Shown here piece by piece: positions 2,968 to 35,648 of a stretch of DNA of 35,648 nt; positions within the stretch are counted from its first letter, which is position 1; every line of letters starts with the position of its first letter. The DNA lies in IMG/VR virus record IMGVR_UViG_3300028388_002289, positions 1 through 35,648 of that record; one strand, given 5' to 3'. The DNA is from a virus. The notes beneath the pieces were generated by a model. That model worked only from the letters and a program-made list of their open reading frames with translations. It ran no database searches and was not told the DNA's origin. A program made the position numbers and the translations under genes.

Positions 2968-3423
2968 TTATCTTTGCTCTTGATATATTATGCTTAATGT
3001 TATCTGTGAATCAGCGTCAGGGTCTAGTTTAAATCTTACAAACTTCGCTAATCTTGGAGTCAAGACTATCCATCTGGTGGCATTCTGTAAGGCTGTGACT
3101 ATATTCCCCTCAGAAGTGATAGTGCCTGAGAGATTGGTCGTATAAGCGGTATAGAAGTTAGTCCCGTCTAACGAATACTCTGCGGAAATATCCACGTCTC
3201 CAGCCCCGCCAGCTTTATTCTCTGTTACCAACATGGTCATATACCCAACATTGTCGTAAACTTTTATTGGTTCTGTATATACCGCCGCACCGCTGGTTAA
3301 ATCATAAGCTGATAAAACCGTGCCGGAAGTATCTTTTGGCGTCACTTCTTCAACAAAAAACCTGTTGGCATGAGCCGTTGTACATATCATTAAAAATGCT
3401 AGAATTAGGATTAATTTTTTCAT
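2968..3423 (-). CDS. Signal-peptide protein, small beta-sandwich-like
   Basis: The gene encodes 151 aa with a signal peptide over residues 1-19 (MKKLILILAFLMICTTAHA, then N). The mature part reads as a compact beta protein, including the segment SAEYSLDGTNFYTAY and a C-terminal ITLSIIYQEQR. That pattern resembles discoidin-like or phage accessory beta modules that describe a measured mean. The SD AAGGAG is 8 nt from the ATG. It is the first of three adjacent signal-peptide genes and follows the internal virion protein genes. Function unknown. Confidence 0.75.
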   Translation of the reverse strand: MKKLILILAFLMICTTAHANRFFVEEVTPKDTSGTVLSAYDLTSGAAVYTEPIKVYDNVGYMTMLVTENKAGGAGDVDISAEYSLDGTNFYTAYTTNLSGTITSEGNIVTALQNATRWIVLTPRLAKFVRFKLDPDADSQITLSIIYQEQR

Positions 3424-5624: not shown

Positions 5625-6502
5625 CTAAAACCCTCATCAGGCTCAACTCCGCCCGAATCTTGTGTAGTCGGATTTAATATCTTCTCTAGCATGCCTCTTA
5701 TCCGTTGAAGTTCCCTTTTTGCGGATTCTTCTGGGAGCCCTCTTGAAAGTCGATTGGCAGAATTCCCCAATAACTCCAACTCTTTCTCGCTCAACTGGCC
5801 AAAACCAGTCGCCCCTGTTCTGCTTGCTTGTTTCAGTTCTGTCATTAATTGCAATACTTGATTACCCTTTAAGTAATTTAACTCTGCTAGCCATTCTCTT
5901 TTCCCAGTACCAGGGATAGAAGGAATTGGGCCAGTAAAACCAAACTGTTTTATATTCTTATCACTTAAAAGACGATCAACAGTATTAAGCATATCAGAAG
6001 CCTTTGCTTTAACTGTTTTAGATTGCAATTCTTTCTTTTCCATATTCTCTCTCTGTTCAATCTCAAATTTCTTTTCTTGAACAGTTTTAAGGTCATCAGG
6101 GACACCAATATCAATACTATTTTTAATAGGAACTTGTTGACCACCACTTGAAGGTATAGGATTGTCTAATTGTGACTTAACCGTCATCCCCCCGCCAACA
6201 ACTTTCCTTCGCCTCAATAGGTCAATCTTATCTGCAAACTGAGGAAATTTCTGATAGAGTTCAGTTACCGTCGTCTTGATTTTATAATTGTTCTGGTAGT
6301 CATTGTTGTCGCCAAAAAGCTGTTTAAGTCGTGAAAAAGTAGTGTTTGCAGCTTCTTCGGCCTTTCTGCGCTGATGACTCTCAATCACACCAGACTCCAC
6401 ACCCCTGCCAAACCCTCCGGCCAAACCATATAAAGGATTCGCCGCCTGGCTCGTCTGCCTGTCATACTCCGCTAAAGCTATTAAATCTTGAATACTTGCC
6501 AT
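5609..6502 (-). CDS. Probable internal virion protein (second of set)
   Basis: The product is 297 aa, beginning MASIQDLIALAEYDRQ. After a Gly-rich N-terminal stretch it is helical, and the C-terminal third contains the pattern ASRTGATGFGQLSEKELELL. That segment recurs in ejection or internal virion proteins of podoviruses, followed by a helix that ends the protein. AAGGAGCAATT precedes the ATG. It lies 9 bp downstream of the gene at 6512 and upstream of the 650-aa internal protein, and its 3' end meets the possible plus-strand membrane gene. The name rests on pattern and position rather than a defined domain. Confidence 0.65.
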   Translation of the reverse strand: MASIQDLIALAEYDRQTSQAANPLYGLAGGFGRGVESGVIESHQRRKAEEAANTTFSRLKQLFGDNNDYQNNYKIKTTVTELYQKFPQFADKIDLLRRRKVVGGGMTVKSQLDNPIPSSGGQQVPIKNSIDIGVPDDLKTVQEKKFEIEQRENMEKKELQSKTVKAKASDMLNTVDRLLSDKNIKQFGFTGPIPSIPGTGKREWLAELNYLKGNQVLQLMTELKQASRTGATGFGQLSEKELELLGNSANRLSRGLPEESAKRELQRIRGMLEKILNPTTQDSGGVEPDEGFSYLWE

Positions 6503-6511
6503 AATTGCTCC

Positions 6512-7375
6512 TTAGACAGTTTGATCATCTTTTTTGAATATATCCGCTATCTTGCCACTGATTAAATCTCCGACACCTAAACCGACGCCAGTTCCTATCC
6601 CACTCAACCCAGCATTTAACAACGCGCCAAACGGCGTTGACCGTGTAGATGTTAACTCTTTGGCCCCATAAGGAATGTTTCGGTTATAAAGCTGGCTCGT
6701 GGCGTCAAGTGCCGTTCCTAACCTCTCATTCCTGGCCCTCTGCCATTCTTCATACTGAGATTGGGCCTTTGCCGTATCTAAAAGCCTCTGTAATGACCCA
6801 ACAGTCGCCCCGGTCTGGATATTGTTCAAATCCATCTGGTTCTGTGTCCCGGCTAACCCGACTAACCCCTGCGCCCCGGCCAATGACCTGTTCTGCGCTA
6901 TATTGTATAACTCAGCCAGCTTTGTCGCTAAAATGTCCCCCTGCCGCTCGGCCAAATCTGTCTTTGCTCCTAGTATCCTGTCCCCAAACCTGTTCCCGGT
7001 GATCGCCGCTTCCCGGTTAAGAACGTCATCGGCGTCTCTTGTGGCCCTGGCTACCTGCCTGGAATAAGCCGAATATCCGCTTGACGGGTCCTGTGGGTCA
7101 AACGACGTATCTGCCAACCGGGTAAGTGTATTCTCTGCGGTGTTTAATGCCGTTGGTGTACCAGCGTTAAGCAACTCGTATATCCTGTTTGTCGCTAACC
7201 CCTCTGTGGCCGTAGGCGTGAAACTTCCCATTGACCCGCCGTACTGTTCACCCAAATCCACCCCGGCGATGTTACCGCCCTGCGAAATGCTGGATAAAAG
7301 CCTCTGCGCCTGTTTCTGCTCCTCGGTGAGCATCGGCTCTAACGAATAAGTCTTGTCGCTTGTAAATAGTCCCAT
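6512..7375 (-). CDS. Probable internal virion or DNA-ejection protein
   Basis: The 287-aa product starts MGLFTSDKTYSLEPML. It is Ala/Gln/Leu-rich and predicted helical over residues 50-230. A Gly-rich C-terminal stretch (GLSGIGTGVGLGVGDLISG) could insert in or cross a membrane, a feature of proteins ejected into the host envelope. It is followed 9 bp later by another candidate internal protein and preceded by tail-module genes. No catalytic motif is seen. Confidence 0.65.
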   Translation of the reverse strand: MGLFTSDKTYSLEPMLTEEQKQAQRLLSSISQGGNIAGVDLGEQYGGSMGSFTPTATEGLATNRIYELLNAGTPTALNTAENTLTRLADTSFDPQDPSSGYSAYSRQVARATRDADDVLNREAAITGNRFGDRILGAKTDLAERQGDILATKLAELYNIAQNRSLAGAQGLVGLAGTQNQMDLNNIQTGATVGSLQRLLDTAKAQSQYEEWQRARNERLGTALDATSQLYNRNIPYGAKELTSTRSTPFGALLNAGLSGIGTGVGLGVGDLISGKIADIFKKDDQTV

Positions 7376-7384
7376 TTTATTCCC

Positions 7385-7780
7385 TCACTTTGTAGAAAGT
7401 ATGTGCCAGTCTGTTCCGTCTGATATTACAGATAATGAATCGTATTGACTCGATAAAGAATATGTGTTCGCTCCGTCAATGTTCTCACCCGTCTGGGCCG
7501 CTACCACGACCGTATTTGATGCATGGGTATTCTTGACGATAATCTCTCTCTCTTTGCTCGGTGATGCTAACGGAAGCGTCACTGTCGCCGTATCTGTTCC
7601 AATCACAACTACATCATTTTTTCCTACTGTGTAATTCGTCGCCACTGACACCAAGTTCGGCCTGTTCGCTAGCTCTACGCTCTCATCAATCTGGTTAAAC
7701 GTGTCCTCTAAAGCCCTTACCAAATCATGCTCAAACGGCGTCTGAGGAACAGGTAATATCTTTTTAGCTCCGATCTTCAT
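7385..7780 (-). CDS. Small tail or fibre module protein
   Basis: The product is 131 aa. After a helical N-terminus (residues 1-40) it has the TVGKNDVVVIGTDTATVTLP pattern and a C-terminal SDGTDWHIL motif, typical of trailing domains on phage tail spikes and fibres. It overlaps the end of the preceding gene by 4 bp (ATGA) and so is coupled to the tail-stabilisation protein. A tail accessory or fibre-attachment component is likely. The exact role cannot be read from the sequence. Confidence 0.6.
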   Translation of the reverse strand: MKIGAKKILPVPQTPFEHDLVRALEDTFNQIDESVELANRPNLVSVATNYTVGKNDVVVIGTDTATVTLPLASPSKEREIIVKNTHASNTVVVAAQTGENIDGANTYSLSSQYDSLSVISDGTDWHILSTK

Positions 7781-9321
7781 CGTCTGAACTCTCTTGGCTT
7801 AAAGCCTAACTTAAACTGCTTAATTGCTAAATCCGAACCCGTGGCGTTTATCCTGAACCTTACTCTCAGCTTGGTCGATACCGCATCAAAATATAAATCT
7901 ATCGGGGCCGAATCCGCCGGGAAATCTGTCGTTAAAGTATAAGGACTCCCGCTCATCTCGTACCAGTTTTCTCCAGCATCAGAAGAATATTCACAAGTCA
8001 GTGACCCCGACCCCTTTGCCCATAAATGACACTCCAACCATCGGCACATCTGCCCGATCTCGTCCGCCTGGTAATCTTTACTTGTCCAAATGGCATTGAT
8101 GGCCGTCGACCCGTCGTTCTTTGACGTAGAATCCACCCGGTACGTCTCCCCGTCACTCGCTCCTAAATATATGTCAGTAAATGATTCGTTAACAAAAGCA
8201 TCGTTCCATCTCCACGTCTGCGCGTCCCACGTCCCAACTAAATCAGCCCATGTCTGCGAACTCTCAGAAGTTACAGACCGCCAGGCCGCCGTTATCCCGC
8301 TACGGACATCTTTATATAAAACCTTAGTTACATAATTATATTTATATACTGTGTCCGGCGTGGTCTGTGACCCTAAAGGTACGCCAATCCATACCTCATC
8401 CTGCTCGGATACCAATACCCCCCAGGACTTGAAAGCATAATCCTGGCTTAACTCGTCCCTAATCTCGTCGTTCGTTGTCCCGCTGATAGACGGCGATGAA
8501 ACCCCGTTAAACAACCGTATCCCGTCATCTGCTAAATATATCTGCTCACCTGTCGGCAAATTAACAATCGTGTGATTGGCTATCGTTCCTTTGCCGACAT
8601 TCCTGCGGTCAAACCTGAATATGTCGTTACTCGATACCAAAGAACCTAAATAAATCGACGTGGCTTTATGTACCGCCACATAATCCCCAAAAACGTTTAA
8701 TCCTGTAATATCCTCCCCATCCTCTACCAGATCAGTGCTTCCTGCGTTTCCACTATCCCACGTCTCCGGGTCAGCCGTATCACACCACTGCACCCTTTGG
8801 GCAACATCCGTCCCCCCGGCGATATTAGCGCACACTAAATATGTTTTGTATTCCTGGATAAACTTCGCCACCGGGGGAGTCCCGCCTAAATCAGCCGTAT
8901 TCCCGGAAGCGGTCCATTTCCGTATAGCGTCAATCCCGTTAGCAATACAAAGTATTCTCTTACTTGATAAAATAGGAACCGCCGTGTCAACCAGATCATT
9001 CGTTGACCCCGTTAAGTCAGACCCCGTTATATCCACCCATGCCGACGTTCCCGTGTTGTACCTATCGATCTTATCCAACCCAATGCGGACGTTATATCTA
9101 ACCCCCTCACGGATTAACTCTCTCCCGGCCATGATCTCATCAGCCGTTGAGATCGCCGACCCAACGGCAGTCGTGCCTTCCCGTTTTGTCAAAAGACCTC
9201 TGGCAACTTTAAAGTTCTGCACCGCCGAAGCAGCGTTGGGAGATATATACTCTGCCGGTCTTGATACATCCAGCCCGTCAATGAGCAGTATTGAACCTCT
9301 TTTTTGTAATGCTAATGGCAT
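7777..9321 (-). CDS. Tail stabilisation (P22 gp10-like, beta-propeller) protein
   Basis: Starting at the ATG at 9321, which overlaps the previous stop as TAATG, the product is 514 aa and begins MPLALQKRGSILL. The chain is a succession of beta blades. Recognisable segments include VQWCDTADPETWDSG, VFGDYVAVHKATSIYLG, YLADDGIRLFNG, and a C-terminal CEYSSDAGENWYEM carbohydrate-binding-like module. This layout matches the large tail or neck stabilisation proteins of podoviruses that close the portal vertex. Its place between the collar-fibre gene and the internal proteins agrees. Confidence 0.65.
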   Translation of the reverse strand: MPLALQKRGSILLIDGLDVSRPAEYISPNAASAVQNFKVARGLLTKREGTTAVGSAISTADEIMAGRELIREGVRYNVRIGLDKIDRYNTGTSAWVDITGSDLTGSTNDLVDTAVPILSSKRILCIANGIDAIRKWTASGNTADLGGTPPVAKFIQEYKTYLVCANIAGGTDVAQRVQWCDTADPETWDSGNAGSTDLVEDGEDITGLNVFGDYVAVHKATSIYLGSLVSSNDIFRFDRRNVGKGTIANHTIVNLPTGEQIYLADDGIRLFNGVSSPSISGTTNDEIRDELSQDYAFKSWGVLVSEQDEVWIGVPLGSQTTPDTVYKYNYVTKVLYKDVRSGITAAWRSVTSESSQTWADLVGTWDAQTWRWNDAFVNESFTDIYLGASDGETYRVDSTSKNDGSTAINAIWTSKDYQADEIGQMCRWLECHLWAKGSGSLTCEYSSDAGENWYEMSGSPYTLTTDFPADSAPIDLYFDAVSTKLRVRFRINATGSDLAIKQFKLGFKPREFRR

Positions 9322-11959: not shown

Positions 11960-12745
11960 TCATTTCTCCTTTAAAATATTCATTATCCTGTTGAACTTAT
12001 TTAACCTTAATGGCTTGTCTCTTTGAGCCAGCTTGCTCAATTCCATAATCTCATTGCCTATATCCACCTGCGGGATTCCATTAACATCCCGCTTTAATGT
12101 CTTGTTATTCATAAACAAATCAAACATCCGGCGCTTTGATTCATCAGTCTCTTTGACGTGCTCATGCTCTATAATGATATTTCTTATCGGGATCACCCTC
12201 TCACACCTCGAATAAACGTCGTATGTGATCTTGTCTGCCGGGTAAACTGGTATTTTAGGATGAAGCAACCACCCCAACCCGCAAACAGATTTTCTTGATA
12301 TAAACGGAAAACACGGGAACGGATGGCGATATTTCATCCGGGCCGTATCTAAAACATCAAGCATAAATATCTTGCATCCATACTGATCTAACATAAAAAC
12401 TTTACATCCGTACTGCCTAACAGTTGTCAGTATCTTGGCGTCCCAATTCGGCGTTTTCATCCATGTGTCATCATTAAAGCCCACAATAATGTTTCCGACC
12501 GTCCTGTCTGCCAGCCAATTATAATAATCGTTCGTGAAATCCTCCGTTATGGGCCGTTCAAAAAATCTTGTGCTGAATGTATATCCCCTCTGTTCTACAA
12601 CATCACATATGTCCGTTTTCCCCTCATCTATCGCAAACAAAAACTCAATCTTTTTCTTATACTTTGTTGTTCTTTCAAACGAATCGAGCATCTTTATAAT
12701 CGGCTCTTTTATCCCTCTGGTAGGCATGCAAAATGAAAAGTTCAT
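11960..12745 (-). CDS. Glycosyltransferase-like protein (GT-A family)
   Basis: The ATG at 12745 has GAGG 8 nt upstream and gives a 261-aa product beginning MNFSFCMPTRG, the strand start of GT-A (GT2-like) enzymes. The in-frame extension to 12904 only reads through the preceding gene and is rejected. A VGFNDDTWMKTP segment supplies the DxD-like metal/nucleotide-sugar site. Residues near 115-135 contain a tandem duplication (QYGCKVFMLD followed by QYGCKIFMLD). It is the last of three sugar-modification genes in the capsid-tail operon, so it probably modifies a virion component or a host glycan. Confidence 0.65.
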   Translation of the reverse strand: MNFSFCMPTRGIKEPIIKMLDSFERTTKYKKKIEFLFAIDEGKTDICDVVEQRGYTFSTRFFERPITEDFTNDYYNWLADRTVGNIIVGFNDDTWMKTPNWDAKILTTVRQYGCKVFMLDQYGCKIFMLDVLDTARMKYRHPFPCFPFISRKSVCGLGWLLHPKIPVYPADKITYDVYSRCERVIPIRNIIIEHEHVKETDESKRRMFDLFMNNKTLKRDVNGIPQVDIGNEIMELSKLAQRDKPLRLNKFNRIMNILKEK

Positions 12746-12747
12746 TA

Positions 12748-13353
12748 TCAGTACCTCACCGCCAGCTCTATATGCCCGACCTTTACCTTTGAATCGAAAC
12801 AAACTCTTTCCCCGATCTCTTTGACCGCCCGGCAGAACGTCACATCTTCCGTGCAGTTTTCCTTTGAATCCAGGATGAACAAATCCTCTCCGTACTTCTT
12901 CCAAAGAACCTTTAAAAGATTGGGCCGCATTACCAAAAACCCGAACCCGACCACCTGGCAGTCAATGACGCTTCCATCCAGCTCGCCCTCTTTGAAATGC
13001 CGGAACCCGTTATCATCGGTTATCCCATGTGCCGTCTCAGTGCTTCCATGCAACTTGTACGTCCCCGACAGCATCGGAAGATTCTCTTCTTCCATGCGCT
13101 TAATGAGAGCGTAAAAATCTTTTTTCTTATAAATATGGTCGCTATCAAGCCATAAAACATAATCAAACTTGTCTTTTAGTTCAACAGCGTAACTTGTCAG
13201 GGCCTTTCTTGCCTTTGCCGCGTTAAACCCGTTGCTGAAAACAAACTTGCACCTGTGCCCGTCCTCAACCAACTGTTGATGGAAGTCAATCAATGAAATA
13301 ACGCAACTTGCGTCCATTGCCTTATAAATAGGCATCAGCACCATAATGCTCAT
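12748..13353 (-). CDS. GT-A glycosyltransferase
   Basis: The product is 201 aa, beginning MSIMVLMPIYKAMD. It has the family order of an N-terminal nucleotide-binding strand, the DxD motif in YVLWLDSDHIY (about residue 70), an acceptor-region CQVVGFGFLVMRPNLL, and ENCTEDVTFCRAVKE, which looks like the catalytic-acid region, followed by a GHIE histidine near the end. Similar compact GT-A proteins occur in phage structural clusters. It overlaps the upstream methyltransferase gene by 4 bp and is followed 2 bp later by a second glycosyltransferase. The sugar donor cannot be predicted. Confidence 0.75.
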   Translation of the reverse strand: MSIMVLMPIYKAMDASCVISLIDFHQQLVEDGHRCKFVFSNGFNAAKARKALTSYAVELKDKFDYVLWLDSDHIYKKKDFYALIKRMEEENLPMLSGTYKLHGSTETAHGITDDNGFRHFKEGELDGSVIDCQVVGFGFLVMRPNLLKVLWKKYGEDLFILDSKENCTEDVTFCRAVKEIGERVCFDSKVKVGHIELAVRY

Positions 13354-13853
13354 TTTCTGTTCTCCAATATGAAGAAAAACTTATGCTCCGTTTCATGAGC
13401 ATATATTTTCTTAAAGTTAGCTTTATAGATGTTTCGGAAATCCGACATATTCGTATTCCCGACCTGTTCATATTCTTTCTGGTTTAAATAAACTAATGTT
13501 TCGTTCTGGATAACCCTTTTGTGTGAAGGATCGCCCCATGTCCATATACCTCTTGGAACAGAAGCAAAAAACATTCCTCCAGGCTTTAATATCCGGGCGT
13601 ACTCTGTGAACTCTTTAAAAAAGAACTCGTAATCCCCCTGATAAGCCAGGTGTTCAAGCACTTCATAAGCGTGGATCTCGTCAAACTCGTTTGTGTTGAA
13701 TGGTAAGGGATGCTTGGTTAAATCCCACACCACGTCCGGCTTATGATCAGCGTTGCTGTCTAGCCTCACCACGTTCTCAAACTCTTTTCGGTTGTCAAAG
13801 ATCAAGTCTTTCTGTGTCCGGCTTCCACAGCCGATTAACAACTCTTTTCGCAT
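13350..13853 (-). CDS. SAM-dependent methyltransferase (class I)
   Basis: The product is 167 aa with the usual methyltransferase-11-like order: LLIGCGSRTQ (motif I), VRLDSNADHKPDVVWDL, DEIHAYEVLEHLAYQ (the acidic/Glu-His segment), and RILKPGGMFFASVPRG. It lacks an added C-terminal domain and is short for the family but complete. It begins a three-gene group with two glycosyltransferases, a pattern known from glycan-modifying clusters. Methylation of a sugar or glycosylated virion protein is plausible but unproven. Confidence 0.75.
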   Translation of the reverse strand: MRKELLIGCGSRTQKDLIFDNRKEFENVVRLDSNADHKPDVVWDLTKHPLPFNTNEFDEIHAYEVLEHLAYQGDYEFFFKEFTEYARILKPGGMFFASVPRGIWTWGDPSHKRVIQNETLVYLNQKEYEQVGNTNMSDFRNIYKANFKKIYAHETEHKFFFILENRK

Positions 13854-18826: not shown

Positions 18827-20137
18827 TTAAACTATTGCCGGATTGAACTCAGGTTGTCCTGCCTCATCAAAGTACCCGTCTTTCTTCCTCCAGGGCTGAA
18901 CGTATTGAAGCCCATATATCCCCATAACATAACAATCTGCCCGGTCAGGACTCCTGCCTAACTCTTTCTTGATCTGCTCTTTAGGCAATAACTTGATCTG
19001 CCCCTTTGAATTGGTCACCTTATACGGAACATTCACCAACTGCTTTCTTAGCTCCTCATCCCCCTCACACGGATACTCAATCTCTTTGTCCTGTATCTTG
19101 TTCATAGTGTACCAATACGCCAAATCCCGCATATTGACCACTTCGGGCCGGTTTGATTTCTCTGCCCCATTGAAAAACTGAACCCTCTTGCCTAACTCCC
19201 TCAACCTGTCAGCTATGCCTATCCCTATCCCTACCGTATCTATTATGAAATCCTCAATCTTGTGCTTAGCAGCCATCATCATTAACTCACCGGCAACTTT
19301 CATCGTGTCCCGCTCAAACATGATCTTTGTATCTACCCGGCGGCCATTCTCTAACACATATATCACACACTCATCACCGCCCATCGCAGGGTCGCAACTG
19401 ATGATCTTATACAGCTTGGGGAACTGTATCCTTAACCCTCGGATCGCCTCTAACATCTGGTTGGTAATGATAACAAACTTGTCCCCTGAAACATTCCAAT
19501 CATTCTCTACGAACTGAGCGTATATCTCCGGCTTGGTCTTTTTCATGATCTCCAAGCCATCTAAGAAATCAGCCGGCAAAACGTCAGCATTGTCGTATGT
19601 GCTGGCTTCTATACAGTCAGATTCATCAAGCTCGCCCTCTTTCCACAACCGGCGGCCCCAGTGATCTCCCGCGTTTCCTATAACGAACCCGGACCGCTCA
19701 GGCAACCCTAACCGCTTGAAGTTGTCCGTAGGGTTGACCTGCCGCCTTAACCTGCCAAAGAGCAAGAAGAACTCATTATCCGTCTCCAGCTCATCACCCT
19801 GCTCTATCGCGAACCAGCCTAAATTTACGTTCTGGATATTGTGCAATTCCTCTATATGCCTGAACTGGATAACCGACTTATTGTCAAAGACCACTTCCCG
19901 CTGGCTGTTTACCTTTAACCCTGTGTATTTCTCAAAATCTTTTACTGTCGAATCTCTCAGGTCTGTGTACTCTTTCCGAAAGATGATCCCTAAGTTCTCC
20001 GGGATGTTCTCTGTGTAAGCCAGCCCACGAAGAATCATACACATTGACTTACCGCAAGCCCACCCAGCCCAAAATCCAGGATACCTTTTCCTGTTATACA
20101 CGAACCTCTCTTGCCACGTTTTTAATTTCACATTCAT
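18827..20137 (-). CDS. terL: Terminase large subunit
   Basis: With the ATG at 20137 the product is 436 aa. The N-terminal ATPase has an atypical Walker A (AGWACGKS, residues 24-31) and Walker B with catalytic Glu in FAIEQGDEL (109-117). The C-terminal nuclease carries acidic motifs in ISCDPAMGGDE (about 250), DTVGIGIGIADRL (about 300) and SPDRADCYVMG (about 400). It pumps DNA into proheads at the portal. No good SD precedes the start, and the gene overlaps its upstream partner by 44 bp, so coupled translation is likely. Confidence 0.93.
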   Translation of the reverse strand: MNVKLKTWQERFVYNRKRYPGFWAGWACGKSMCMILRGLAYTENIPENLGIIFRKEYTDLRDSTVKDFEKYTGLKVNSQREVVFDNKSVIQFRHIEELHNIQNVNLGWFAIEQGDELETDNEFFLLFGRLRRQVNPTDNFKRLGLPERSGFVIGNAGDHWGRRLWKEGELDESDCIEASTYDNADVLPADFLDGLEIMKKTKPEIYAQFVENDWNVSGDKFVIITNQMLEAIRGLRIQFPKLYKIISCDPAMGGDECVIYVLENGRRVDTKIMFERDTMKVAGELMMMAAKHKIEDFIIDTVGIGIGIADRLRELGKRVQFFNGAEKSNRPEVVNMRDLAYWYTMNKIQDKEIEYPCEGDEELRKQLVNVPYKVTNSKGQIKLLPKEQIKKELGRSPDRADCYVMGIYGLQYVQPWRKKDGYFDEAGQPEFNPAIV

Positions 20138-20327
20138 TTCGTATAACAACTATTTGGTTTTTAACCAATTCACCATCAAGCTGTGTAGGCAAGTCTTTTG
20201 TAGTTAGCGCCAAAGCGATCTTTATCTTGTTTGTTTGGCTGAACTTATGAAAGTTATCATTAAGATAAGACCAACACTTTCCTACAAATAATTCCTTAAT
20301 TGTCTTTTCATGTTTTGTGGTGTTCAT
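20094..20327 (-). CDS. First gene of late operon; possible terminase-associated protein
   Basis: The product is 77 aa and carries a central helix region (KIKIALALTTKDLPTQLDGE). A GGGGG SD lies 6 nt before the ATG, just beyond the last of three terminators. It directly precedes and overlaps the large terminase gene, the usual place for a small terminase subunit, but it is short for one and shows no clear helix-turn-helix. A similar small protein often precedes large terminase in environmental phages. I treat it as unknown with a packaging link. Confidence 0.6.
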   Translation of the reverse strand: MNTTKHEKTIKELFVGKCWSYLNDNFHKFSQTNKIKIALALTTKDLPTQLDGELVKNQIVVIRNECEIKNVAREVRV

Positions 20328-20334
20328 AATGCCC

Positions 20335-20391
20335 CCAACAAAAAAGGCACAACCCCCCTGATCAGGAATTGTGCCTTAAAGTTTTTGTTGG
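20335..20391 (-). terminator. Third tandem terminator before the terminase operon
   Basis: GGCACAA (20346-20352) pairs with TTGTGCC (20369-20375), and on the minus strand the stem is followed by TTTTTT. Outer sequences CCAACAAAAA and TTTTTGTTGG extend the pairing to the whole interval. It lies immediately upstream of the SD of the gene starting at 20327, so leftward transcription must pass it to reach the late genes. Confidence 0.75.
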
Positions 20392-20397
20392 TCAGTC

Positions 20398-20479
20398 CGG
20401 GAGCGACCCGGGATCTAAATTATGGGAACCTTGCACGAATCTTCTTTTTTATCTTATTTGTCAAGATCGGAGGCTCCCG
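20398..20479. other. Unassigned structured element between terminators
   Basis: CGGGAGC (20398-20404) pairs perfectly with GCTCCCG (20473-20479), and inside it GATCT (20412-20416) pairs with AGATC (20464-20468). The loop is AT-rich with a TTGACA-like hexamer. No T-run follows, no D-arm or T-arm is present, and no gene covers it. It may be part of the late leader RNA, for example a recognition site for an antitermination or packaging factor. Confidence 0.45.
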
Positions 20480-20484
20480 AAAGT

Positions 20485-20525
20485 AAAAAAGCCTTTCTGC
20501 TGTCCTGTCAGAAAGGCGGGTTTTT
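20485..20525. terminator. Second tandem terminator, bidirectional
   Basis: GCCTTTCTG (20491-20499) pairs with CAGAAAGGC (20509-20517) as a perfect 9-bp stem. AAAAAA on its left gives the T-run for leftward transcription, and GGGTTTTT on its right serves rightward transcription. It is the clearest intrinsic terminator in the window. Confidence 0.88.
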
Positions 20526-20544
20526 GTAAGTTTTGGCATTTTTT

Positions 20545-20585
20545 AAAAAAATAGCCCGTCGAGAAACTGTTTCACTCGTACGGGC
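20545..20585 (-). terminator. First tandem terminator after the late promoter
   Basis: GCCCGTCGAG pairs with CTCGTACGGGC (one bulged base), and the inner GAAAC/GTTTC extends it to a long hairpin. On the minus strand it is followed by TATTTTTTT. It ends about 60 nt downstream of the promoter at 20615-20642, so transcripts from that promoter would be short unless terminators are overridden. Confidence 0.82.
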
Positions 20586-20614
20586 ATAGAGCTAGAACCT
20601 TATTTTACGCCTTT

Positions 20615-20642
20615 ATTATACCATAAAATAATATTTTTTCAA
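20615..20642 (-). promoter_or_regulatory. Candidate late promoter overlapping the ThDP gene end
   Basis: On the minus strand TTGAAA (20642-20637), a 16-bp spacer and TATAAT (20620-20615) form a strong sigma70 promoter, with TGG directly before the -10 (extended -10). The -35 overlaps the stop codon of the ThDP enzyme gene. Three terminators follow at once, then the terminase operon, an arrangement like the lambda late promoter and its terminator. Confidence 0.75.
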
Positions 20643-22456
20643 CTGTTTTTTAAAATAATGTTTTGATTAAATTCTTTCCTGGGTAAATACGGGTACATAT
20701 CTTCTATGGGTTTGCTCCATCCGATAACCTTTGGTTCATAGGTGTGATATTCAGGACAAACCACATCACATATAACCGGCCCTTCGTGGTGTAATACTTC
20801 TTTTATTTTCTCGTCGAGACCTTTGTTGAAATATATATGCCTGAAACTGATATTATATGCATCGGCAACTTTTTGGAAATTAGGCGGCGCATACCCTTTC
20901 GGCCCGCACGCTTCCGCGCGGCCTTCAAAATTTACCTCTTGAAATGCTTTTGTGATCCCATATATATTATTATTTATAATAAAAACTTTTACCCCAACAT
21001 TATAGTTTACCATTGTCTGCAACTCTTGGATGTTCATGTTCATCCCGCCGTCACCTATTATGCAGATCACGTTATGAATCCCAAAGGATGGATTGCTGTC
21101 ACAATCATATATATCATATCCATTATCTTTTGTTGCGAACCACGCCCCGATTGCTCCGGCCATTGAAAAACCCATCGGAGAGTTTCCGTTGTTAGTTATG
21201 ATCCTCTGCCCGGTTTTTGATCTAAACGCATGATTCATGATTACAATATTCCCTCCGCAATCTCCAACAATAACATCTTTAGGCGAACAGAGTTGAGACA
21301 ACTTTTGCATGAATCCATACGGATGAACAGGAACAAATGTTTTTTCTTCCTGCTCAATAAAATGCTCAGGCTTGACAGTATCATACTTTTCTCTCCATGC
21401 AATGGCCTTTTGTGTCCATGATGTAAAGTCTGGGAGGAGTTTATTATTGATATACTTATTGAATTCCCGGACAAAATATCCTGCATCTGAATACCAATTA
21501 ACGTCAAACGGGCATTGCTGGTAATGCGGCTGGAGCATTTCTTTATCGATGTCAATAAGGTATTTCTTAGCACTCCTGGCAAATGACCGCACGTTCCCCC
21601 CGGTAATTCGGCCTGATAACCGTGTCCCTATACCTATGAGCAAATCACTGTTCTGCACACCAAAATTTCTGCCAGGGCCGCCGTAAGTTCCAATCCGTCC
21701 ACCGTAATATGGGAAATCAGAACAGATTATGTCTATTGCGTTCCATGTAGGATATACAGGAACTCCTAAAAGACTGGCCATATTAAGAACATCATCTTTT
21801 GCCTTATAACATCCTGCGCCAATTAGCAAGACGGGTCTCTTTACTTTACACAAATCATTATAAAGCATATCAAGTTCAAAAAAGTAATCATTGTCCTGGA
21901 AGGGATAATATGTTCTGTCAGATGAAATTTCAATTTCTGCCTTCTGGACATCTATTGGCAAATCTATCAGCACAGGCCCCGGACGGCCCGTTTTCATTAT
22001 ATGAATGGCCTTCTGAAGCTCATAAGGAACATCATTTGGACTTTTTATCATAACAGCATATTTGGTGATCGGCTTAACAATACTAACTATGTCAGTCTCT
22101 TGGAACCCAATCTGCCGGATACCTTCATGAGGTCTGAAAAATTGAGTTTTTATCTGACCAGTAATAAATAAACAAGGAACAGAATCATAAAAACAATTCC
22201 CTATTGGAGTGACAAAATTCTGACCTCCTGGGCCGCTCGTTGCTAAAGCCACGCCAAAATTGCCAGATACTTTTGCGTATCCCTCAGCAGCGAACCCGCC
22301 CGCCTGTTCGTGCATTACACACACATATTTTATTTTATTAGTCCTGGTGAAAGCATCAATAAGATCGCCATTGGCTGACCCATATACTGAAAATACTTCT
22401 CTCACGCCCTGCTCTGCCAAATAGTTTATTACATAATCAGCTGCCTTTATCTTCAT
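20639..22456 (-). CDS. ThDP-dependent enzyme, acetolactate-synthase-like
   Basis: The product is 605 aa from the second of two adjacent ATGs, the better spaced from GGGG. All three domains of the family are present. The N-terminal PYR domain has catalytic Glu50 in CVMHEQAGGFAAEGYA; then come GNCFYDSVPCLFITGQI and the TGRPGPVLIDLP hinge, a central Rossmann domain, and a C-terminal PP domain with IIGDGGMNMN (about 465) leading to the distal Asn of IINNN. It resembles the ThDP enzymes of surface-polysaccharide clusters more than housekeeping IlvB, and no regulatory subunit lies nearby. It decarboxylates a 2-keto acid and may transfer the resulting acyl group. Substrate unknown. Confidence 0.85.
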   Translation of the reverse strand: MKIKAADYVINYLAEQGVREVFSVYGSANGDLIDAFTRTNKIKYVCVMHEQAGGFAAEGYAKVSGNFGVALATSGPGGQNFVTPIGNCFYDSVPCLFITGQIKTQFFRPHEGIRQIGFQETDIVSIVKPITKYAVMIKSPNDVPYELQKAIHIMKTGRPGPVLIDLPIDVQKAEIEISSDRTYYPFQDNDYFFELDMLYNDLCKVKRPVLLIGAGCYKAKDDVLNMASLLGVPVYPTWNAIDIICSDFPYYGGRIGTYGGPGRNFGVQNSDLLIGIGTRLSGRITGGNVRSFARSAKKYLIDIDKEMLQPHYQQCPFDVNWYSDAGYFVREFNKYINNKLLPDFTSWTQKAIAWREKYDTVKPEHFIEQEEKTFVPVHPYGFMQKLSQLCSPKDVIVGDCGGNIVIMNHAFRSKTGQRIITNNGNSPMGFSMAGAIGAWFATKDNGYDIYDCDSNPSFGIHNVICIIGDGGMNMNIQELQTMVNYNVGVKVFIINNNIYGITKAFQEVNFEGRAEACGPKGYAPPNFQKVADAYNISFRHIYFNKGLDEKIKEVLHHEGPVICDVVCPEYHTYEPKVIGWSKPIEDMYPYLPRKEFNQNIILKNS

Positions 22457-22474
22457 CATCTCCCCTTTCGAAAC

Positions 22475-22534
22475 CTAACCTTTTCCCCCAATGATATTGA
22501 CAATAATATTGATGCTTATTATTGACCGCTTCAT
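22475..22534 (-). CDS. Candidate Ile-rich leader peptide
   Basis: A 19-codon frame, MKRSIISINIIVNIIGGKG, ends 16 bp before the ThDP enzyme start. Seven of its 19 residues are Ile and one is Val, as in leader peptides of branched-chain amino-acid operons. AAAGGA lies about 11 nt upstream. I see an inverted repeat (CAATAATA/TATTATTG) inside it but no terminator hairpin behind it, so attenuation is only a possibility. AT-rich chance composition is the main alternative. Confidence 0.3.
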   Translation of the reverse strand: MKRSIISINIIVNIIGGKG

Positions 22535-22578
22535 GGTAGTGTGCTTCCTTTCCGCAGGTTGCTTGATTCTCTTTTTGG

Positions 22579-23751
22579 TTACATCGCCATTTTTGCACGC
22601 AACGCATTTTTTATTCTTTCTAGTCCTTTTTTGATGTTTTCCGTAGAAGTGCAATAACACATTCTTACATATCCTTCGCAATATTTGCCGAAGTTTGGCC
22701 CAGGCAATAACGCCACCCCGTTCTTTAGCATAAAATCAGCAAACTCTTGGCTGTCCATGCCTGTTTTCGTTATGTTTGGAAATACATAAAACGCACCTTT
22801 TGGTATGACACATGATATTCCAGGAATGTCATTTAATCCGTCCACAATTATTTTGCGCCTTTTTCTTAAAACTTCAATCATCGCCCTTACTTCTTCACAT
22901 CCTGTATTTAATAACATCGCCCCGGTCTTTTGTATGAACGTATTAGTGCATGATATGGTCGTCTGAAGCAAAAGGCCAATCTTTTCACACAACTCTGTCG
23001 GCCCGATCATATACCCTAACCGCCAGCCAGTCATGGCGTAAACTTTTGAAAACCCCGTCATCATTATGGTCCTTTCTTTGCAATAGTCATATTTGCTTGG
23101 CGATGATACACAATCGTCATAACTCATATGTCGGTATATTTCGTCACTTAAAATGTATATATCTTTTTTTACAGCTATGTCATAAATCTCTTTTATCTCT
23201 TCAGGTGTTATAACTGACCCAGTCGGGTTTTGCGGGGAATTGATTATCAACAACTTGGTTTTTTTGGTTATCCTTTTCTCGATGTCTTTAGGATTCATGC
23301 GGAAATCATTGATCTCTCTCACAGGGATAGCAACAGCAGGAATGCCAAGAAACTTTAATACAGAATAATATGTCGGGAATGATGGATCGGGGACCAAAAC
23401 CTCCTGGCCCTGTTTAACAAGACATCTGATCACAGAATAAATAAGACAATTCGACCCCGGCGAAACTACGATCTGGTCCATGTCTGGCTTAAAACCTAAA
23501 TCACGATAAGTATAGTCTGCGATGGCTTCTTTAAATTCGCTATCTCCCGATGAATTTGTGTAATGGGTGTATCCTTTTAAAAGACTTTCATGACAAGCAT
23601 TTATCACCGACGAAGGCGTTTTAAAGTCGGGATCGCCTATTTCAAAATGGATTATATCTTCGCCATTAGCTATTCTCTCATTTACCTTTTCAAGCAAACG
23701 GAACATCGGTTGCCCTTCAAGACGATTAGCGGCTTTTGTAAGTTCAATCAT
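22579..23751 (-). CDS. PLP-dependent aminotransferase, class I/II
   Basis: The product is 390 aa, full length for fold-type I aminotransferases of the aspartate family. Marks in order are DIIHFEIGDPDFKTP, YTHYTNSSGDSEFKEAI, the cofactor-binding SPGSNCLIYS, INSPQNPTGSV, ILSDEIYRHM (the Asp that binds the PLP nitrogen), TGFSKVYAMTGWRLGY (Lys that holds PLP, about 237), and the C-terminal Arg region YVRMCYC. Its start overlaps the radical SAM gene by 8 bp. It would interconvert an amino acid and a 2-keto acid, the substrate class of the ThDP enzyme encoded next. Confidence 0.9.
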   Translation of the reverse strand: MIELTKAANRLEGQPMFRLLEKVNERIANGEDIIHFEIGDPDFKTPSSVINACHESLLKGYTHYTNSSGDSEFKEAIADYTYRDLGFKPDMDQIVVSPGSNCLIYSVIRCLVKQGQEVLVPDPSFPTYYSVLKFLGIPAVAIPVREINDFRMNPKDIEKRITKKTKLLIINSPQNPTGSVITPEEIKEIYDIAVKKDIYILSDEIYRHMSYDDCVSSPSKYDYCKERTIMMTGFSKVYAMTGWRLGYMIGPTELCEKIGLLLQTTISCTNTFIQKTGAMLLNTGCEEVRAMIEVLRKRRKIIVDGLNDIPGISCVIPKGAFYVFPNITKTGMDSQEFADFMLKNGVALLPGPNFGKYCEGYVRMCYCTSTENIKKGLERIKNALRAKMAM

Positions 23752-25243
23752 TCAAAAGTTTTCTTTTTAACTTTATGTTCATTGAATTTATAGTTTCTTC
23801 CTTAGCCTTATCCCCAAACTTATTCTTTATCAAATCTAAATATTTGGACCGATTATGATACTTTTTCCATGCATCATCTCGAAACTTTAATACCTCCCTG
23901 GCAGATACATACTTCGTAGGCAAAGGTTGACATTCATAAGAATGCTGAGAGTATCCCAAATAACTTCCAGGGAGTTCCCACCCGTTTTCCAATGCTTTCC
24001 CATATAAAGGACTTCCGGGGTATGCCATTGCAGAATAGAAGTTTGCCATTGGTGTGTTTAACTCAAAAGCCAAATCAAGAGTGTCTTGCATAGAGGAAAT
24101 ATCATCTTCTGGCAAACCAAAAATATAATTAGCAGCCACATTAATTCCGCTATTATCAATATCTTTAACAACCTGCCTAATATCCACTCTTTCAAACTGG
24201 CCCTTAATGACATCATCCCTCACTTTCTGCGCCCCTGATTCTATCCCCAATCCTATCCAGTTAATCCCGGCCTTTTTCATAATATCCAAATATTCCCTTT
24301 TGACCGTATCTATGCGGGCATAACACCATATGTTAAATTTATGCTTTCTTCTTATGATCTGCTTGCATATTTCAAGAAAGTGGTTAGGGTTCAAAACAAA
24401 CATCTCATCGGCTATCTTTAAATTTTTCATCCCCATATCGGCTAACTTATCCAGCTGGTCCATGACAGACGACACCGGCCACCTTCTTAACATTCTGCTC
24501 TCGTTAGCATATATTCCGTTAGTGCGGTTTATAATATTTATCATGCAGAAATAACACCCGAATGGACACCCTAGACTTGTGTAAATCGATGCAAAATCCC
24601 CACGGCAGCAATCATTAGTATAAGAATGCCAAAGAGACGTTCTGTATTTCTTCATCGTGAACAATTCCCATGCAACACCTGGGAGATCATCTTGCATCTT
24701 CCGCTGCGGCACAACATCTGATGGCCTGTTCCGAAACACCAAATCTCCCATGCGATAACCTAACCCATCAACAAGACTAAGATCATGCTCACTGTTCATG
24801 TCGGTTTTAAGTAATTTTAATATTGTGTAAACTCCCTCATTCTGACATACAAAATCTATTTCCGGGTGAAGAGCCATTGTTATCACCGGCGCCGCTGCGA
24901 CATGGGCGCCAACGAACAATATTTTAATATGCGGATATTTCTTGTTTAATAAAGATGACAACTCCACAGCGCCTTCCATGTTCTGCGTGCTGGCAGACGG
25001 CTGCTGGCCATAGACACAAAAACATGCAATCCGCGGGTTAACTGAATTTATTATGTCTGCCGCCTGATCTATATTTATCTGTTCCGCTTCACAGTCTAAA
25101 AGATTTACAGAAAACCCATTCTTAAGGCAATGACCAGCCAATAACCCAGCCCATATTGGCGGCTCGATAGCTGACAAACTCTTGCTTAACCCCTGGTATA
25201 TCTTTTGAGAAGCGTTTGGATGTATAAATATAATATCAATCAT
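23744..25243 (-). CDS. B12-binding radical SAM protein
   Basis: The product is 499 aa. The N-terminal 170 residues form a cobalamin-binding Rossmann-like domain (IIFIHPNAS, LLDCEAEQ, ILFVGAHVAA). The radical SAM core has the 4Fe-4S motif CPFGCYFC (Cys226, 230, 233), the WIGLGIESG SAM-binding strand and NYIFGLPEDD. Family members catalyse methyl transfers or ring rearrangements, often on lipids, sugars or antibiotics. It is first in the three-gene metabolic cassette and overlaps a 32-aa frame upstream by 8 bp. The substrate cannot be read. Confidence 0.9.
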   Translation of the reverse strand: MIDIIFIHPNASQKIYQGLSKSLSAIEPPIWAGLLAGHCLKNGFSVNLLDCEAEQINIDQAADIINSVNPRIACFCVYGQQPSASTQNMEGAVELSSLLNKKYPHIKILFVGAHVAAAPVITMALHPEIDFVCQNEGVYTILKLLKTDMNSEHDLSLVDGLGYRMGDLVFRNRPSDVVPQRKMQDDLPGVAWELFTMKKYRTSLWHSYTNDCCRGDFASIYTSLGCPFGCYFCMINIINRTNGIYANESRMLRRWPVSSVMDQLDKLADMGMKNLKIADEMFVLNPNHFLEICKQIIRRKHKFNIWCYARIDTVKREYLDIMKKAGINWIGLGIESGAQKVRDDVIKGQFERVDIRQVVKDIDNSGINVAANYIFGLPEDDISSMQDTLDLAFELNTPMANFYSAMAYPGSPLYGKALENGWELPGSYLGYSQHSYECQPLPTKYVSAREVLKFRDDAWKKYHNRSKYLDLIKNKFGDKAKEETINSMNIKLKRKLLND

Positions 25244-25334
25244 CTTGTCTCGGATCGCCCTGGGGGAACCTGTCCAACATATCTCTTGTAGCTGTGTAAA
25301 TGTCCATTATGCTCCTTATCCTTTTTCTACTCAT
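25236..25334 (-). CDS. Micro-ORF ahead of the radical SAM gene
   Basis: A 32-codon frame (MSRKRIRSIMDIYTATRDML and on) ends 8 bp inside the radical SAM start and begins at the ATGA overlap with the 34-codon frame before it. An internal ATG at 25307 has AAGGAG 4 nt upstream and may be the true start (23 aa). The basic N-terminus and overlaps suggest translational coupling rather than a structured enzyme. Confidence 0.35.
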   Translation of the reverse strand: MSRKRIRSIMDIYTATRDMLDRFPQGDPRQDD

Positions 25335-32692: not shown

Positions 32693-33202
32693 TTATTTAA
32701 ATGTTGGTCTCTGCCGTCCATAATATTTCCAATTAATTACCAGTTGTACGTTGCGGATTAAGCAGTAAGCAAACATTTTCCGAAACTCTTTTATTCGCCT
32801 TTTCTCAATGAATCTTCTATTGTTTCTGTCTATTTTTCTATACAATCCTTTTGATGGAATCGGTTTTATTTGGAGATATTTATCAATAATCCCAAGCAAA
32901 TTGTCCTCTATTTCTAGGTTTCTAAGCCGCCATACTCTTAAACCAAATGATGATATATGCTGGTCTCTACGCATGTCATAATTCTGTTGCTTTCTGTCTT
33001 TATCATGAAAGTTTCCATCAATTTCAATTACGAGATTTCTGGATGGGCAGAAAAAGTCAACAATATAGGGCGCAATAATAAATTGTTTCTTGATTTGTTC
33101 TAATGGGAATAACTCAAAACACTCGCACATAATTTTTTCATGCTTTGTCGGATTCTCTAACATGTCCTTTGCTCTCTTCTGTAATATTTGTAATGTAAGC
33201 AT
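32693..33202 (-). CDS. DUF559/Vsr-like endonuclease
   Basis: The product is 169 aa. The family signature is LENPTKHEKIMCECFELFPL, VDFFCPSRNLVIEIDGNFHD (the ID-G-x-x-H active-site region), QQNYDMRRDQHISSFGLRVW, and a C-terminal basic tail. Such Vsr-like PD-(D/E)XK endonucleases occur as free-standing or intron-linked mobile nucleases. The start codon directly abuts the structured leader and T-run at 33203. It is the first gene after the promoter at 33385, ahead of the lysis genes. Confidence 0.75.
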   Translation of the reverse strand: MLTLQILQKRAKDMLENPTKHEKIMCECFELFPLEQIKKQFIIAPYIVDFFCPSRNLVIEIDGNFHDKDRKQQNYDMRRDQHISSFGLRVWRLRNLEIEDNLLGIIDKYLQIKPIPSKGLYRKIDRNNRRFIEKRRIKEFRKMFAYCLIRNVQLVINWKYYGRQRPTFK

Positions 33203-34472: not shown

Positions 34473-34481
34473 TTTACGGTC
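34472..34481. other. Abrupt AT-to-GC-rich junction
   Basis: To the left the DNA is AT-leaning and coded on the minus strand. To the right it is very GC-rich, coded on the plus strand and in a completely different codon style. Genes on both sides appear cut at their 5' ends. Most simply two genomes were joined by assembly. Confidence 0.75.
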
Positions 34482-34805
34482 GTGCTGGCGGTCGTCCTGC
34501 CGTGCCAGGCTGATGCCGTCGAGTGCGACTCCTCCCCCATGGCCGCCGAGCTGTGCGACTGCTACGCCACGCAGGAGGGGCTAGCCGTCGAGCTGGCCGA
34601 CTGCCGACTGATGGGGCAGCAGACGCAGGCCGAGCGTGAGGCGCTGGACCTGCAGAACACTTCGCTGCGTGCCACGATCCGCGACCTCGAGGCCGACGCC
34701 GCACGGGAGCGGGAGCGGAAGCGTCGATGGCGCGCGGCTACCCCCATTGCTGGCGGTGCGGGTGCTGTGGCCGGGATCGTCCTGGCGCTGGCGGTGATCC
34801 TGTGA
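34482..34805 (+). CDS. Membrane coiled-coil protein, start probably lost
   Basis: A GTG at 34482 opens a 107-aa frame, which is also open further upstream up to 34464. The first residues (LAVVLPCQADA) look like the end of a signal peptide, so the true start probably lies beyond the junction. The middle is coiled coil (about 40-80) and the C-terminus is one hydrophobic helix (AGAVAGIVLALAVIL). This resembles a spanin or small phage membrane protein. It is GC-rich and overlaps the next gene by GTGA. Confidence 0.5.
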   Translation: MLAVVLPCQADAVECDSSPMAAELCDCYATQEGLAVELADCRLMGQQTQAEREALDLQNTSLRATIRDLEADAARERERKRRWRAATPIAGGAGAVAGIVLALAVIL

Positions 34806-35113
34806 TCGCGCTGTACGGATGCCGGGACTGCATGCACACCTGGGACGAGAGTACGGGTGCGCTGTGTCCTCGATGCGGCGGCGGCTGGACCCACACGACG
34901 TGGGCGGATCCTGCCGAGCCGGACATGCCTCGACCGCTCGCCACGATCCCCGGCGGCTGGCCCTCGCTGCGTGCCGTGGTCGAGGACGCGCTACAGCACC
35001 TGCCCGTGCTCGTCACGGGTGACGGGACCGATCTGGTTGTCGAGGCGACCGTCGGCGCGAGGGTCGGGATGGAGCTCCGCGCACAGGTCGCGGCTGCGCT
35101 GGGGGCCGAATGA
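34802..35113 (+). CDS. Zinc-ribbon-containing protein, GC-rich segment
   Basis: The GTG at 34802 overlaps the previous stop (GTGA) and gives 103 aa. IALYGCRDCMHTWDESTGAL then CPRCGGGW forms a two-knuckle zinc ribbon. The C-terminal half has two helices (SLRAVVEDALQHLP, MELRAQVAAALGAE). The longer frame from 34727 reads back into the preceding gene. Unknown function in a tightly coupled operon. Confidence 0.6.
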   Translation: MIALYGCRDCMHTWDESTGALCPRCGGGWTHTTWADPAEPDMPRPLATIPGGWPSLRAVVEDALQHLPVLVTGDGTDLVVEATVGARVGMELRAQVAAALGAE

Positions 35114-35610
35114 CGCGCCTCGTACAGCTCCCGTCGGAGATGCCGCCCTACTACCTCCGCGTCCTGCGGGTGACCCCGGCCGATGAGCAGGGGCTGGCGA
35201 CCACGGACGAGCGCCGGGACCGCATTTACCTGCACACTCCCGACGGCTACCTGTTTGCCTACGGCGGAGCGGTCGCCACGCATACCGAGCGCCATGCTGC
35301 ACCGGAGATCCTGCCCGGCTGGTATCCCGACGCCTATCAGGTCGGGCTCCACATGGGCCGGCCTGCTTTGGTGCATTGGGGCGAGCCGCTGACGTGGGAG
35401 CGAGGTGGACGGTTGGAGTCGGGGCACACGGGCCTCAACGTGCACGACTGGCGCGGACGGTCGGACGGCTGCATCACCCCGCCTGGCTGGTGGGTTGACG
35501 CGGCGCTGGCTGTCTGCGAGTCTGCGGGTGTGGGCTCGTCGTCGTCGCGGCTGGGCCTGCTGATGGAGTGGGGTCCCGGCGTGCGGCCGGACGTGGCGAG
35601 GGCGGCGTGA
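35110..35610 (+). CDS. Hypothetical protein with L,D-transpeptidase-like motif
   Basis: The product is 166 aa, beginning MTRLVQLPSEMPPYYLRVLR, with an ATGA overlap upstream. The centre contains GLNVHDWRGRSDGCITPPGW, where His and the S-x-G-C-I pattern recall YkuD-type peptidoglycan transpeptidases and related phage proteins. The spacing is short for a true YkuD domain, so peptidoglycan or envelope action is only a suggestion. Confidence 0.55.
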   Translation: MTRLVQLPSEMPPYYLRVLRVTPADEQGLATTDERRDRIYLHTPDGYLFAYGGAVATHTERHAAPEILPGWYPDAYQVGLHMGRPALVHWGEPLTWERGGRLESGHTGLNVHDWRGRSDGCITPPGWWVDAALAVCESAGVGSSSSRLGLLMEWGPGVRPDVARAA

Positions 35611-35648
35611 CTACTCGTCTTGCCGTCGCAGCAGGCGCTCGACCGCCG
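35607..35648 (+). CDS. Start of a further coupled gene, cut by window edge
   Basis: A GTG overlapping the preceding stop (GTGA) opens a frame VTTRLAVAAGARPP that continues to the edge. It follows the same coupling pattern as the other genes of the GC-rich segment. Only 14 codons are visible. Confidence 0.35.
   Translation, partial: MTTRLAVAAGARPP

Follow-up and report, generated by a model that had tools for sequence, protein, structure and literature searches.

A phage-borne trio of radical SAM, aminotransferase and YerE-like genes as a candidate cassette for C-branched sugar synthesis

YerE-like enzymes, of which JanthE is one, are thiamine diphosphate (ThDP)-dependent enzymes that join 2-oxo acids to ketones, including deoxy-keto sugars (PMC12247030). 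YerE itself adds acetaldehyde from pyruvate onto CDP-3,6-dideoxy-4-keto-D-glucose, ErwE prefers 4-hydroxy-2-oxo acid donors, and a 2025 review of these enzymes describes their orthologues in viruses as still unexplored (PMC12247030). AprD4 of the apramycin pathway, a radical S-adenosylmethionine (SAM) diol dehydratase, works with the reductase AprD3 to take a hydroxyl off a sugar (PMC5461906). Phage genes that alter host surface polysaccharide are known from O-antigen modification by the temperate phage Kapi1 (PMC8787464), and marine T4-like phages (pelagimyophages) carry radical SAM and sugar genes that are swapped as cassettes and attributed to O-chain modification; the paper describing them makes no mention of acetolactate synthase, pyruvate dehydrogenase or aminotransferase (PMC7029224). 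Here we describe a three-gene cassette (positions 20639–25243) in a virus contig that IMG/VR lists as linear, IMGVR_UViG_3300028388_002289, of which positions 1–35,648 were analyzed (the window). We consider it fairly probable that the trio is a mobile, minimal C-branched-sugar auxiliary metabolic cassette drawing off a sugar nucleotide of the host and so altering a glycan.

The cassette lies on the minus strand and consists of a gene for a 499-residue radical SAM enzyme with a B12 domain (23744–25243), a gene for a 390-residue pyridoxal phosphate (PLP)-dependent class I/II aminotransferase (22579–23751) and a gene for a 606-residue YerE-like ThDP-dependent carboligase (20639–22459). An earlier note on this DNA had described an intact three-gene cassette with all expected cofactor and active-site motifs, and the open reading frames (ORFs), domain matches and conserved catalytic residues confirm that description. 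Its statement that the genes overlap or nearly do so holds for the radical SAM and aminotransferase genes, which overlap by 8 bp, but not for the aminotransferase and ThDP genes, which are separated by a 119-bp gap. The cassette has a GC content of 0.39–0.40 and a third-codon-position GC content (GC3) of 0.38–0.42, compared to 0.45–0.50 and 0.54–0.59, respectively, for the neighboring packaging and head genes. Judged from sequence comparison, the trio is a real, transferable and co-inherited cassette. The enzyme classes of its products and the sugar context of their relatives are well supported.

The ThDP enzyme matches PF02776, PF00205 and PF02775 (6.6e-33, 8.7e-20 and 1.6e-32, respectively, all above Pfam cut-offs) in the TPP_N/M/C order of the DC superfamily, and its Glu51 and GDG motif (G469-D-G...N497) are invariant in 39 aligned homologues. 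A search of solved structures with a profile built from eight relatives ranked JanthE (8rph) first and Pf5 (5ahk) second, followed by plant, yeast and bacterial acetohydroxyacid synthases (AHAS). JanthE is also the best fold match of the AlphaFold model (predicted local distance difference test (pLDDT) score of 87.7), with a Z score of 44.7 and a root mean square deviation of 2.2 over 575 residues; 5ahk ranks under plant AHAS in the fold search. Direct alignment with the AHAS IlvG revealed that the acceptor Trp of IlvG (RQWQ) is replaced by Phe (F506, AFQ) in the window enzyme and in 5ahk, that the QWQ motif of the AHAS acceptor site is not present in the window enzyme and that the IlvG MHG is TYG, the Tyr (Y259) being common to JanthE and 5ahk. 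An extra loop with IRQ-GFQE is common to the window enzyme, JanthE and 5ahk compared to IlvG, and a C-terminal PIED-YP-LPR tail is shared by the window enzyme and JanthE. The best NCBIfam names for the protein are acetolactate synthase models, and its scores stay below all of their equivalog cut-offs (TIGR00118, 348.6 vs 538.35 bits; the other models score lower). The view of the earlier note that this enzyme lies nearer to surface-polysaccharide types than to IlvB is supported, as JanthE and 5ahk outrank IlvB by sequence and the relatives adjoin nucleotide-sugar genes. The window enzyme resembles YerE, ErwE and JanthE in the order of its domains, the catalytic Glu and the GDG motif, and it shares the loop and Tyr with JanthE and 5ahk. 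Relatives of it adjoin predicted 3-dehydrases of the type that makes 3-deoxy-4-keto sugars. It differs in being encoded by a phage and in its partners, which here are a radical SAM enzyme with a B12 domain and either an amino-acid aminotransferase or PanB. On these comparisons, a YerE-like branching module that is carried by a virus and paired with a radical SAM enzyme and an aminotransferase would represent a distinct variant.

The radical SAM protein matches PF02310 (5.7e-12) and PF04055 (1.9e-14), above Pfam cut-offs and far above chance, and residues Cys226, Cys230 and Cys233 of its CX3CX2C motif are invariant across 31 aligned homologues. The combination of a B12-binding domain with a radical SAM core containing CX3CX2C places it, by its domains, in the predicted cobalamin-binding (class B) type. 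Cobalamin use is nevertheless not to be assumed, because AprD4, the best fold match, is described as a diol dehydratase of the radical SAM family (PMC5461906). The AlphaFold2 model (pLDDT 92) matches AprD4 (6fd2) with a Z score of 31.6 over 414 residues at 18% identity, with cobalamin-dependent methylases ranking next, and AprD4 is also the top match by sequence among solved structures, in an alignment that spans the B12-like and radical SAM domains. AprD4 works on a sugar ring. The two proteins differ in that the window enzyme has CX3CX2C where the aligned stretch of AprD4 reads CPYPCRFYC, and an AprD3-type reductase was not identified for the window. The window enzyme also falls below the NCBIfam AprD4 equivalog cut-off (84.1 vs 500 bits) and reaches no curated subfamily cut-off in NCBIfam. 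Its step may be a dehydration to a deoxy-keto sugar or a C-methylation; both are possible.

The aminotransferase matches PF00155 (4.8e-68, above the Pfam cut-off), and its Asn175, Asp203, Lys236, Arg244 and Arg363 are invariant in 11 aligned homologues. The PLP lysine (Lys236) and the carboxylate-binding arginine (Arg363), in a fold-type I context, mark it as a predicted class I/II amino-acid aminotransferase. Its nearest solved relatives are aromatic and aspartate aminotransferases, and an amino acid fits as substrate rather than a sugar, because Arg363, which binds the α-carboxylate, is retained. A scan of viral contigs with the aminotransferase sequence found no relatives.

Whether the trio recurs elsewhere had been posed as a question beforehand, and it does. 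A 71-kb phage contig, L111, siphovirus-like by eye, holds the same genes in identical order, with identities to the window of 63% (radical SAM), 45% (aminotransferase) and 56% (ThDP); beyond the trio, the only match between the two contigs is one glycosyltransferase match of 24%. The window and L111 proteins are sisters in the radical SAM tree (support 100/99) and in a quick ThDP tree (SH-aLRT 84). Near its trio L111 has weak GT8-like and GT2-like matches, an epimerase and methyltransferases. Among 50,697 GenBank phage records, ThDP matches are at most 29.3% identical and mostly ilv genes of host-contaminated records, and the only radical SAM relative is in Streptomyces phage SF3 (24%). A scan of a genome collection yielded 55 ThDP relatives, 51 of them scoring well. 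At 25 of these 51 bacterial loci a radical SAM gene lies within 3 kb, at 23 the full trio does, and 41 contain a sugar gene. The bacterial trio loci are mainly from Nitrospira, with one from a Parcubacterium, and there the trio lies inside nucleotide-sugar clusters, the kind of surface-sugar setting to which the earlier note had pointed. The Nitrospira gene order is DegT homologue, epimerase, HddA-like kinase, nucleotidyltransferase, aminotransferase, radical SAM and ThDP, and the radical SAM gene is present in 27 of 29 genomes of the genus. Several Nitrospira clusters carry a second B12-type radical SAM gene after the ThDP gene (L059:11910–13535 and alike). Two loci labeled Nitrosospira (L049 and L050) have the Nitrospira cluster layout, and L050 also falls inside Nitrospira in trees; these bins are probably mislabeled. 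A further locus, from Prochlorococcus AG-409-P03 (L043), coincides in length and range with the IMG/VR contig of L002 and is therefore a phage contig filed in a single-cell bacterial genome.

The genes that accompany the ThDP gene provide insight into acceptor and donor. A motif search over 96 ThDP loci with both K-type and H-type queries identified a DegT homologue with His replacing the PLP lysine (H-type) in 68, and a true K-type DegT protein in two only, once a false motif match (L079) and a protein missed by the motif (L087) are taken into account. A His at the PLP-lysine position marks pyridoxamine phosphate (PMP)-dependent 3-dehydrases, such as ColD and CDP-4-keto-6-deoxyglucose 3-dehydrase (E1). 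These two are the best solved matches of two representative DegT neighbors, and one DegT neighbor has RfbH as its best NCBIfam match, under the cut-off. The H-type proteins beside the ThDP loci therefore suggest that the neighborhood makes the substrate class used by YerE. Because most relatives carry both a 3-dehydrase and a radical SAM gene, the two enzymes probably act at different positions, and a general replacement of the 3-dehydrase by the radical SAM enzyme becomes less likely. No 3-dehydrase was found in the window or in L111. It is conceivable, if unlikely, that here the AprD4-like enzyme makes the deoxy-keto sugar itself, in place of the PMP/iron-sulfur 3-dehydrase, and that the YerE-like enzyme then branches it with a 2-oxo acid from the aminotransferase, which would be a self-contained and hitherto undescribed route from a host sugar nucleotide directly to a C-branched sugar.

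Beside the ThDP gene there is an aminotransferase gene in 32 of the 96 loci and a PanB gene in 29, never both. PanB makes 4-hydroxy-2-oxo acids. Since the two are mutually exclusive and the PanB products are of the type preferred by ErwE, the aminotransferase and PanB would both supply the 2-oxo acid donor. A phosphonate pathway (PEP mutase, phosphonopyruvate decarboxylase and transaminase), raised by weak PEP_mutase matches of the PanB-like neighbors, was ruled out, as these neighbors clear the PanB cut-off (322 bits) and the ThDP enzyme is of the long AHAS type. A different exchange is seen in the T4-like phages L017 and L019, whose DNA is 93–96% identical on both flanks and through the radical SAM gene: the ThDP and aminotransferase genes of L019 (3651–6640) sit where L017 has DJ-1/PfpI, E1-alpha, E1-beta and a gene of unknown function (5873–9014). 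For 19 T4-like loci the sequence is long enough to tell: E1-alpha/beta occurs in 17, ThDP in one and both in none. Sugar branching is known from the YerE-like family and also from the E1-alpha/beta-type family (alpha-KADH2) (PMC12247030), and the swap therefore suggests equivalent roles. The 301-residue gene of the E1 module (L038:13755–14660 family) matches neither Pfam nor NCBIfam.

We infer the following reactions, product, destination and benefit. The aminotransferase would convert an amino acid to a 2-oxo acid, and the YerE-like enzyme would decarboxylate it and transfer the acyl group to a nucleotide-activated deoxy-keto sugar at its keto carbon, so that a branched sugar bearing a tertiary alcohol results. 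The radical SAM enzyme would alter either the sugar itself or its branch: a 1,2-diol dehydration of the AprD4 type, by which the deoxy-keto acceptor would arise, and a C-methylation are the two candidate steps. The starting sugar nucleotide would come from the host, and host or phage glycosyltransferases would place the branched sugar in a glycan. The product would probably reside in a surface glycan and so change recognition by other phages or by the host's environment. Glycan modification, the reading that the earlier note found most attractive, is supported, with the likely product class sharpened to a C-branched deoxy sugar and the aminotransferase giving the 2-oxo acid donor. In contrast to the pelagimyophage cassettes, the three-gene core stands alone here, in a small genome of podovirus type, and in contrast to O-antigen modification of the Kapi1 type, the sugar precursor here would be rebuilt by C-C bond formation, not transferred or acylated as an existing sugar. 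The earlier note knew of no named phage pathway of this make-up, and our survey of open-licence papers found none described.

Several points weigh against C-branched-sugar synthesis by the trio. In the fold search AHAS is nearly equal to JanthE (Z 43.4 vs 44.7), the ThDP enzyme is 32–33% identical to characterized YerE-like enzymes and 29% to IlvG, and the markers separating AHAS from YerE were picked in this analysis from four sequences, with no published definition behind them. Sugar-nucleotide genes (3-dehydrase, epimerase, HddA, and the kinase/nucleotidyltransferase of most relatives) were not found in the window, and the acceptor must therefore be borrowed from the host. The window aminotransferase is nearer to a Pacearchaeota protein (55%) than to that of L111 (about 45–47%); given this poorer match, partner genes may have been exchanged. 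The exclusion between aminotransferase and PanB partly tracks taxon, the former being mostly bacterial and the latter mostly viral. The loci counted are strongly related and not phylogenetically independent, with 22 of the bacterial trio loci being Nitrospira-type. Finally, the closest phage relative of the window, L144, is a 10.8-kb fragment.

The best-surviving alternative, which we hold possible but doubtful, is that the same enzymes make a sugar that decorates virion proteins or phage DNA through the phage glycosyltransferase-like genes at 11960–13353. These genes, on the minus strand, encode a glycosyltransferase-like protein (11960–12904; phrog_14945, 8e-9; 24% identical to the L111 GT2-like protein) and a GT2-like glycosyltransferase (12748–13353; PF00535, 2.6e-5, and phrog_34859; absent in L144), either of which may be functionally linked to the trio, and they lie with a SAM-dependent methyltransferase gene (13350–13853, minus strand; PF08241, 5.2e-6) between the capsid and adaptor genes. 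L144, whose terminase, portal and capsid proteins are 57%, 52% and 60% identical to those of the window, has neither this block nor, in the 2.6-kb stretch upstream of terL, the trio; glycosyltransferase and methyltransferase genes lie near the trio in L111 as well. However, a single relative gives weak evidence of linkage, the ORFs scanned included no recognizable gene for hydroxymethyl-pyrimidine or other base hypermodification, and the genes of the relatives sit in surface-sugar clusters. A surface change is preferred to virion decoration, by analogy, because of these bacterial clusters and of the O-chain-modification genes of marine T4-like phages (PMC7029224). Among the ORFs scanned, which covered the small ORFs in part, there was neither a flippase/bactoprenol glucosyltransferase nor a specific Gtr, the genes of a gtr-type O-antigen modification operon.

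Much less probable is ordinary amino-acid metabolism, in which an acetolactate-synthase-like enzyme and an aminotransferase would raise branched-chain amino acids during infection. The NCBIfam names and the proximity to the AHAS fold point this way, but the missed equivalog cut-offs, the Trp to Phe change and the different loop do not fit, the relatives have sugar 3-dehydrases and a radical SAM enzyme as neighbors, and ilvN- or ilvC/D-like genes were not seen. Marginally less probable again is a secreted small molecule or signal, or an anti-phage defense compound, made from the 2-oxo acid instead of a surface glycan. B12 radical SAM, aminotransferase and ThDP enzymes are known in natural-product pathways too, and antibiotics contain branched sugars (PMC12247030); yet natural-product genes, such as those for a carrier protein, ligase or exporter, were not recognized, and the relatives are located in glycosyltransferase and sugar-nucleotide clusters. 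Least probable is an assembly artefact joining bacterial DNA onto a phage contig: a false join probably exists at 34,476, the cassette GC is unlike that of the flanking head genes and L144 lacks the trio at the corresponding place, but the closest radical SAM relative, with identical gene order, is in another phage contig, which appears to weaken this explanation, the gene ends are intact with phage genes on both flanks, and low-GC accessory genes are common in phages.

The phage genes on one flank of the cassette encode terminase, portal and capsid, starting with the terminase large subunit downstream (18827–20149, minus strand; phrog_2, 2.6e-19); on the other flank, small genes precede replication and recombination genes (replication initiation, NinG, YqaJ and ERF). 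The assignment to a podovirus in the earlier note is plausible from the P22-type portal, N4-gp56-type capsid and SU10-type adaptor. L144 was the only further relative of the window phage found; in the slot upstream of terL it encodes a polytopic 439-residue membrane protein (L144:948–2267), for which a GT-C-like assignment made by eye is unsupported by any Pfam, NCBIfam or PHROG family. The 198 Nitrospirota and 287 Patescibacteria-group genomes searched contained no terminase relative, a result that says little on the host. A minus-strand leader ORF of 23 codons (25236–25307), with a strong ribosome-binding site of its own, has its stop overlapping the radical SAM start, an arrangement in which translational coupling is possible. 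The earlier note had the cassette bounded by a promoter-terminator block; by eye, hairpins followed by T-runs, putative terminators, do lie 3' of the ThDP gene (20340–20600, minus strand), but an automatic scan, which lists a 14-pair stem at 20377–20344, found terminator- and promoter-like sites in the window no more numerous than in shuffles. No riboswitch or known RNA was found in the window.

At 34,476 the GC content steps from 41% to 71% and coding turns to the plus strand over the last 1.17 kb (34476–35648), a stretch that matched nothing in the phage collection and, among families, DUF1272 alone and weakly; the right end of the window is probably chimeric, falsely joined to another phage or organism. 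Three consecutive genes adjacent to the tail region (1065–1454, 1473–2957 and 2968–3423) start with signal-peptide-like sequences, unusual for virion proteins, and the second has a weak depolymerase C-terminal match. A DUF559 (Vsr-like endonuclease) gene lies at the early end (32693–33202).

Dozens of phage contigs hold a distinct YerE-like subfamily with exchangeable partners, E1-alpha/beta, PanB or aminotransferase, and the swaps between near-identical phage genomes provide a natural experiment for donor-substrate assignment. The cassette family is a possible source of new biocatalysts for tertiary alcohols. If the proposed role is correct, phages would rebuild host sugar precursors via carbon-carbon bonds, which would be a novel means of evading receptor changes or of imposing them.

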